From positions 1 to 64,000 of the forward strand of contig NZ_JAJCTH010000015.1 of assembly GCF_020594515.1 (NCBI RefSeq): a stretch of DNA of 64,000 bases, given 5' to 3'. Both the position numbers and the translations under genes were made by a program. This DNA comes from Rhodoferax sp. U2-2l. Its GTDB lineage: Bacteria > Pseudomonadota > Gammaproteobacteria > Burkholderiales > Burkholderiaceae_C. The notes beneath the pieces are model-generated. The model did no database searches, was not told the origin of the DNA, and saw only the letters and a program-made list of their open reading frames with translations. Below are positions 45,133 to 45,574 of this stretch, one piece after another. Numbering within the stretch: the first letter of the stretch is position 1; each line of letters begins with the position of its first letter.

Positions 45133-45264
45133 TGCAGTACTCCAATCAGGAAGGGTTGAAAAACCAAGCTTGCGTAGCCGCGACTACTTGTCTGCCTGAC
45201 GTGTCCAATGGTCTTCTTCTTGTAGTCACGTTTGGCCGGATGTGAGTCCGCGCTCCCTGTTCAT

Positions 45265-45280
45265 TGCAGCTTCCGTGCCA
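45265..45280 (-). promoter_or_regulatory. Sigma-54 (-24/-12) promoter of nifHDK
   Basis: Minus strand TGGCACGGAAGCTGCA: TGGCAC, GG-N10-GC and TGCA, near-perfect consensus. It lies 133-148 bases before the nifH ATG, so the leader is about 120 bases long. Confidence 0.92.
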
Positions 45281-45367
45281 TGTGTCTACGGTGCTTGTCA
45301 TGGTTTTATAAGTTGTTGTTTTCATTGGACAAAAACAATTTTTTGGGTGCTTTTTGCGTGATGCCAG

Positions 45368-45393
45368 GGTTTTGTTCGCTTCCCGACAAAACC
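45368..45393. promoter_or_regulatory. Palindromic NifA upstream activator site shared by nifH and draT operons
   Basis: GGTTTTGT (45368-45375) and ACAAAACC (45386-45393) are a perfect inverted pair around 10 bases, containing TGT-N10-ACA. It is about 100 bases from the nifH -24 box and about 120 bases from the -24 box of the plus-strand promoter at 45502. No other TGT-N10-ACA was found in this 442-bp divergent region. Confidence 0.88.
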
Positions 45394-45501
45394 AGCGACC
45401 GTGTCGTAAAAAGCCCGTCGTCGAAGGCGCCTGGCGCCGGTTTGTGTCGCGTTTGCAGCGCCTGCTGCCGGGTTTTGGCTGGCTTTGGCGGGGTTTCAGG
45501 T

Positions 45502-45517
45502 TGGTACGGTCATTGCA
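45502..45517 (+). promoter_or_regulatory. Sigma-54 promoter of the orf-draT-draG-fmdB-cowN operon
   Basis: TGGTACGGTCATTGCA on the plus strand: TGGTAC, GG-N10-GC and the consensus TTGCA at -12, 58 bases before the ATG at 45575. Confidence 0.88.
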
Positions 45518-45574
45518 GTTAGAGCCGGGCTTGCTATCAAGTCCACCCGTTCAACCACCACCCAAGGATGTTTC

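Follow-up and report, generated by a model that had tools for sequence, protein, structure and literature searches.

The nifH/orf202 Locus

The stretch of DNA analysed here comprises 64,000 nucleotides of Rhodoferax sp. U2-2l (positions 1 to 64,000 of contig NZ_JAJCTH010000015.1), and we will refer to it at its full length as the window. It carries nifH on the minus strand (44218-45132; TIGR01287, 453 bits) and, divergently on the plus strand, a gene for a 202-aa protein of an uncharacterised, nifH-linked family (orf202, 45575-46183). Further along the plus strand lie draT (46224-47165; PF07357, 329 bits), draG (47158-48072; TIGR02662, 380 bits), a gene for an fmdB-type zinc-ribbon protein (48089-48340; TIGR02605, 56 bits) and cowN (48342-48614; NF033689, 87 bits), so that homologues of both components of the DraT/DraG switch are present in this genome. 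A nifA gene is found on the same contig, approximately 2.8 kb beyond the end of the window (C15:66831-68480), with a score of 669 bits against the TIGR01817 cut-off of 528.85.

The product of orf202 has no match in Pfam, NCBIfam or PHROGs, and its one PDB sequence match, to VP3, is non-significant (E 0.19). An alignment of the window protein with those of 45 of the 56 non-redundant loci (alignment A1; 46 aligned members) reveals invariant FRGE, RPP and C-terminal NRPV residues. The gene is divergent from nifH in 68 of the best 80 loci kept out of 114.

The Intergenic Region

The 442 bp between nifH and orf202 hold a single TGT-N10-ACA motif (45373-45388), the predicted NifA site, referred to below as the UAS. 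It is embedded in an exact 8+10+8 inverted repeat, GGTTTTGT-TCGCTTCCCG-ACAAAACC (45368-45393, assigned to neither strand), in which TGT occupies 45373-45375 and ACA 45386-45388. The palindrome is flanked by two outward-facing putative sigma-54 promoters of the -24/-12 type, each with one mismatch to TGGCACGNNNNTTGCW: TGGCACGGAAGCTGCA on the minus strand in front of nifH (45280-45265; inferred start near 45254), and TGGTACGGTCATTGCA on the plus strand in front of the orf202-draT-draG-fmdB-cowN string (45502-45517; inferred start near 45528). The centre of the UAS is 126.5 bp from the inferred nifH start and 147.5 bp from that of orf202, and thus on both sides within the roughly 100-150 bp upstream that are usual for TGT-N10-ACA. 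The region has the one exact activator site anticipated for a shared divergent enhancer, to which a second and partial one may be added (the element E2, see below).

The perfect palindrome between the two promoters had been described in the first-pass annotation; it was confirmed, and a repeat with 8-bp arms arose in only 2 of 5000 dinucleotide shuffles of the intergenic region. Outward-facing sigma-54 sites scoring at least 14 of 15 on both strands appeared in none of 5000 shuffles (singly, in 27 and 23), and the bare TGT-N10-ACA was obtained in 262 of 2000. Over the whole 64-kb window, TGT-N10-ACA occurs 7 times against 13.2 expected, and sigma-54-like sites with at most 2 mismatches 20 times against 24.4. 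As neither is in excess, the motifs by themselves are weak evidence. The strict IHF consensus is absent from the window's intergenic region (it is present in 2 of the 69 regions compared below), and a hairpin at 45426-45438 was not taken as a terminator because of its position in the leader-free spacer and its tail, GGTTTGTGTC; the same scan returned 5 terminator-like sites for 3.9 expected.

Other occurrences of these motifs were recorded elsewhere. At 49998-50178, TGT-N10-ACA occurs at 49998 and 50030 and is followed by a sigma-54-like site, TGGCATGGTGTTTGCA (50163-50178), downstream of which there are genes for a ModE-like regulator and a molybdate-binding-protein-like product, both named by reading their translations. 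A frame that reads as nifB-like (59636-61333) has at its start two TGT-N10-ACA motifs (61317 and 61371) and, on the minus strand, a sigma-54-like site that departs from the consensus at 2 positions (61287-61272), all within 61272-61386. Also, one and the same sigma-54-like 16-mer, TGGCGCGGGCGTTGCA, is located near the start (bases 57-78) of seven contigs (C4, C13, C14, C25, C28, C29 and C32), besides occurring in C10 and C23 (G000); its recurrence near contig starts suggests a repeated element at assembly breaks.

Conservation in Burkholderiales

A genome scan with orf202 gave 114 relatives, of which the best 80 were kept; nifH and orf202 could both be placed in 68 of these loci, which together with the window make up the 69 regions considered here, the 12 loci left out having no nifH in the fetched stretch. 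These regions are related and hence not independent, and in every one of them promoters and UAS were picked by one simple score. The best-scoring relative of orf202 belongs to another Rhodoferax locus (L031, 92% identity), and the NifH proteins of L031 and L032 are 100% identical (rounded) over 304 residues.

The arrangement of one NifA-type site between two divergent sigma-54 promoters, as first proposed for the window, is kept far beyond it. A sigma-54 site scoring at least 12 of 15 (range 12-14.5), with GG and GC ten bases apart, stands on each side in 69/69 regions, and in 63/69 the interval between the promoters includes an exact TGT-N10-ACA; the other six have CGT-N10-ACA (L083 of Trinickia, L091, L104, L107 and L110 of Paraburkholderia, and L105 of Cupriavidus). 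The spacer sequence differs between genera while promoters and UAS stay. The two promoters have their own signatures: on the orf202 side, all 69 sites open with TGGT and have TTGC toward their end; on the nifH side, all 69 open with TGGC, with CTGC or GTGC in 64 and TTGC in only 4.

The search for the UAS demanded [TC]GT-N10-ACA[AT] located 105-155 bp away from the start of nifH, preferring CG before ACA among several candidates, and GT and ACA are consequently invariant by construction, so that only the other positions of the alignment are informative. Among 67 sites, 90% have TT in the spacer and 93% the C that comes after it, and the conserved core reads approximately TTTGT-N4-TTCCCG-ACAAA rather than as a long palindrome. 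The inverted-repeat arms measure 8 bp in the window and 9 bp in L031 and L032, and 3-7 bp in the remaining exact-site loci. The long palindrome is thus specific to the window and its near kin, and because arm length varies in this manner, the weight initially given to the 8-bp arms was dropped.

Two loci offer a natural rearrangement. In L035 and L036, other DNA separates the promoters (1060 and 2429 bp, respectively), and each promoter has its own TGT-N10-ACA 126.5-127.5 bp away, which is the expectation if both promoters need a UAS. The insert of L036 contains one extra TGT-N10-ACA in its middle, and a frame in it reads as Crp/Fnr-like from its translation.

Genes Downstream of the Divergent Promoter

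The first-pass annotation had presented draTG as the partner of nifH, yet the conserved partner is orf202. The draT gene follows orf202 in 36/69 regions (35 loci and the window), and in the other 33 the divergent promoters occur without a detected draT, some of these contigs being short; as some loci end soon after orf202, the counts for draT and cowN are lower bounds. A gene for a truncated-haemoglobin-type globin (with the Pfam Bac_globin assignment checked for one copy alone, L085:5532-5963) is located in the same direction between the promoter and orf202 in 34/69 regions, together with draT in 12/69. Its position behind the orf202-side sigma-54 promoter makes it probable that, in many Burkholderiales, NifA controls a globin gene opposite nifH.

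In a separate sample, DraT was detected in 35 of 300 genomes of the order, our own genome among them. The fetched stretches of the other 34 include 25 in which nifH is upstream of draT and divergent, 0.2 to 4.7 kb away. Within these 25 loci, draT precedes orf202 in 5 (a sixth candidate, L126, has a weak orf202 match of 32% further on), and a GG-N10-GC site directed toward draT is absent in 7; the best draT-facing sites of the draT-first loci score below the 14 seen in the orf202-first loci L120 and L125. The inferred order of gain makes nifH and orf202 probably the older pair; draTG, cowN and, in other genomes, the truncated haemoglobin would have joined the orf202 transcript later.

As regards the window, the gaps along orf202-draT-draG-fmdB-cowN are of 40, -8, 16 and 1 bp, and in the 300 bp preceding draT, draG, fmdB or cowN there is neither a TGT-N10-ACA nor a GG-N10-GC site scoring at least 12 of 15. 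A tight plus-strand string of genes devoid of internal UAS or strong sigma-54 sites agrees with the operon predicted for it in the first-pass annotation. Nonetheless, draTG, fmdB and cowN could be expressed mainly from internal promoters independent of NifA, in which case the divergent control would matter for orf202 alone. This would fit Azoarcus BH72, where the draT gene did not respond to nitrogen in spite of increases in the genes downstream of it, for which a secondary promoter has been suggested (PMC8467165). The short gaps, the lack of sites in front of the internal genes and the failure of an (insensitive) scan of 45100-48900 to find any sigma-70-like site argue against it, and we consider this alternative unlikely for the window.

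Spacing and Helical Phasing

The comparison of spacing in related genomes that had been proposed as a check was carried out with 67 of the 69 regions, leaving out L035 and L036. The distance from the UAS centre to the inferred orf202 start is mostly near 117, 127, 137 or 148 bp. Two spacings are long (210.5 bp in L059 and 201.5 bp in L106), and others are off the common values (132.5 in L083, 123.5 in L110). Shifts on the orf202 side were reconstructed on a midpoint-rooted FastTree tree built from the NifH and orf202 proteins; 17 amount to 4 bp or more, and 13 of these 17 come no further than 2 bp from a multiple of 10.5. The mean cosine is 0.633, a value reached by none of 20000 draws from a null in which shift sizes are uniform, and 10.5 was the best of the periods from 6 to 16 tested. 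The uniform null is generous, since the 5' leader of orf202 used as a control is also slightly phased (mean cosine 0.276, p 0.046; the other leader control, 0.065, p 0.31); still, the orf202-side excess holds in permutation tests against each of these controls (p 0.038 and 0.016) and against both (p 0.012). When 37 dissimilar representatives were taken, the 13 off-mode spacings on the orf202 side gave p 0.003.

The nifH side, on the other hand, proved not robust: the tree-based test gave p 0.041 and the off-mode representatives p 0.48. In the test of distinct distance values at 10.5, R was 0.64 for the orf202 side and 0.37 for the nifH side, for which 12 was the best period. With all 37 representatives, both sides reach significance in a Rayleigh test, which was not relied upon, given that a common ancestral spacing drives its result. 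Most changes in the UAS-orf202 distance are thus whole turns of the helix, in agreement with DNA looping, and these natural indels favour a loop between the shared site and the promoter of orf202.

Additional Elements and Other Regulators

Between the UAS and the orf202 promoter there are two further conserved elements. E2 (45402..45417, plus strand) begins with TGTCG 29 bp from the UAS start; its [TC]GTCG is situated 29-30 bp after the UAS start in 59/67 loci and 23-33 bp in 64/67, and is absent in 3. As complete UAS pairs 28-30 bp apart exist in L015, L116 and L118, E2 may plausibly be what is left of a second NifA site after decay. E3, brought out by the locus alignment as a conserved TTTGTGTCGCGTTTGCA (45441..45457, plus strand), has its TGTCG 42-44 bp after E2 in 38 of the 64 E2-bearing loci, at other spacings in 12, and lacks it in 14. 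A candidate site for CooA as co-regulator, TGTCR-N6-YGACA, is present in 20/69 regions and was not found in the intergenic region of the window; ten cNMP-binding matches are listed for the Rhodoferax sp. U2-2l genome.

The conservation of E2 and E3 in this position lends some plausibility to a different assignment, by which the UAS would serve nifH only, the orf202 promoter depending on a different enhancer-binding protein or on NifA bound at E2/E3. Other sigma-54 activators are indeed present, as the nifA model has 14 matches in the genome, one above the cut-off and one a fragment, and phasing alone cannot separate the UAS from E2, because the distance between both is nearly fixed. Against this assignment are the helical phasing of the UAS-orf202 spacing itself, and the UAS retained about 127 bp away on the orf202 side of L035 and L036 once the promoters were separated. 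Furthermore, TGCAC-N5/6-GTGCA, the NtrC-type motif, was not found in the window region. On balance, an activator other than the UAS-bound one at the orf202 promoter seems rather improbable. Chance matches, which the frequency of TGT-N10-ACA in shuffles and the absence of an excess of either motif over the window might have invited, are already contradicted by the joint conservation of both promoters and UAS in regions whose spacer sequence diverges between genera, and may be set aside as a negligible prospect.

A Probable Two-Way Nitrogen-Fixation Control Element

We thus consider it quite likely, from the sequence comparisons above, that this region works as a two-way element for the control of nitrogen fixation, in which one predicted NifA site and two sigma-54 promoters would have nitrogenase made together with DraT/DraG and CowN. 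NifA would bind the predicted site at 45373-45388, perhaps aided by the half-site E2, and from there reach sigma-54 RNA polymerase at either promoter by DNA looping, over 126.5 bp toward nifH and 147.5 bp toward orf202. Because a single NifA site would contact both promoters, nitrogenase would be produced under N2-fixing conditions along with its ADP-ribosylation switch (DraT/DraG) and its protection against CO (CowN). In this scheme the sites, their conservation, the gene order and the phased spacing toward orf202 were observed, and we infer NifA binding, looping, transcription starts, the operon transcript and co-expression. A more elaborate version can be put forward tentatively, and we lean somewhat against it: the promoters, off consensus in opposite halves, and a selected helix register would let the one NifA enhancer split activation between nitrogenase and the auxiliary operon at a set ratio, the operon constituting a slot around orf202 for nitrogenase-protecting genes (haemoglobin, draTG, cowN).

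Several known systems share parts of this design. In Klebsiella pneumoniae, nifF and nifLA have divergent sigma-54 promoters, and activator sites lie in the interval that separates the two; the genes are different from those of the window, and nifLA is mainly NtrC-activated. In Pseudomonas stutzeri A1501, pnfA is divergent from nifH, has a -24/-12 promoter and TGT-N10-ACA, and is reported to be NifA- and RpoN-dependent by quantitative RT-PCR (PMC2820453). However, PnfA measures 31.7 kDa and has UspA/ETF-like similarity, and DraT/DraG were not found in A1501 (PMC2820453); the 202-aa product of orf202, in contrast, has no family match. In Vibrio, the activator-promoter distances of sigma-54 qrr enhancers cluster about 11 bp apart in related genomes, a helical-turn INDEL pattern similar to that of the UAS-orf202 spacing, although the activator is LuxO instead of NifA and there is one promoter per enhancer (PMC4740811).

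Regarding the auxiliary genes, the statement in the first-pass annotation that draTG is usually not NifA controlled was too strong. Candidate NifA sites have been predicted upstream of draTG in Rhodospirillum and Magnetospirillum, as in the window, although these are alphaproteobacteria, the evidence there is prediction only, and the section cited mentions neither a site shared with nifH nor an orf202-like gene (PMC4999443). Nitrogen fixation in Azoarcus BH72 brings a 24-fold rise of draG1, with draT unresponsive (PMC8467165), and NifA regulates the gene downstream of draT, azo0536, for which both RpoN and NifA sites are predicted (PMC3916325; PMC8467165). Judging from the draT-then-orf202 order of 5 genomes, azo0536 would be a homologue of orf202; the BH72 case differs in that draT, for which a common transcript with azo0536 and dcrH1 has been proposed, does not respond to N2-fixing conditions (PMC3916325; PMC8467165). 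The cowN gene of Gluconacetobacter diazotrophicus is controlled by NifA and CooA and has TGT-N10-ACA upstream; it has its own overlapping CooA/NifA sites, while that of the window is the last gene of the draTG string (PMC8047169).

No description of a site shared by orf202 and nifH was found in the open-access literature searched, which does not prove that none exists. Both pnfA, divergent from nifH and dependent on NifA, and predicted NifA sites upstream of draTG are already known, and what is new is the arrangement of the window. It is new within a known kind, since pnfA encodes a different protein, and NifA sites of draTG and cowN, as well as azo0536, are known elsewhere.

If this interpretation is true, many betaproteobacteria would make nitrogenase and its off-switch jointly under one regulatory site, and the natural variation in spacing would provide ready-made tests of enhancer looping. 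The conserved orf202, uncharacterised and paired with nifH in free-living as well as symbiotic Burkholderiales, would also become a target for nitrogen-fixation genetics.
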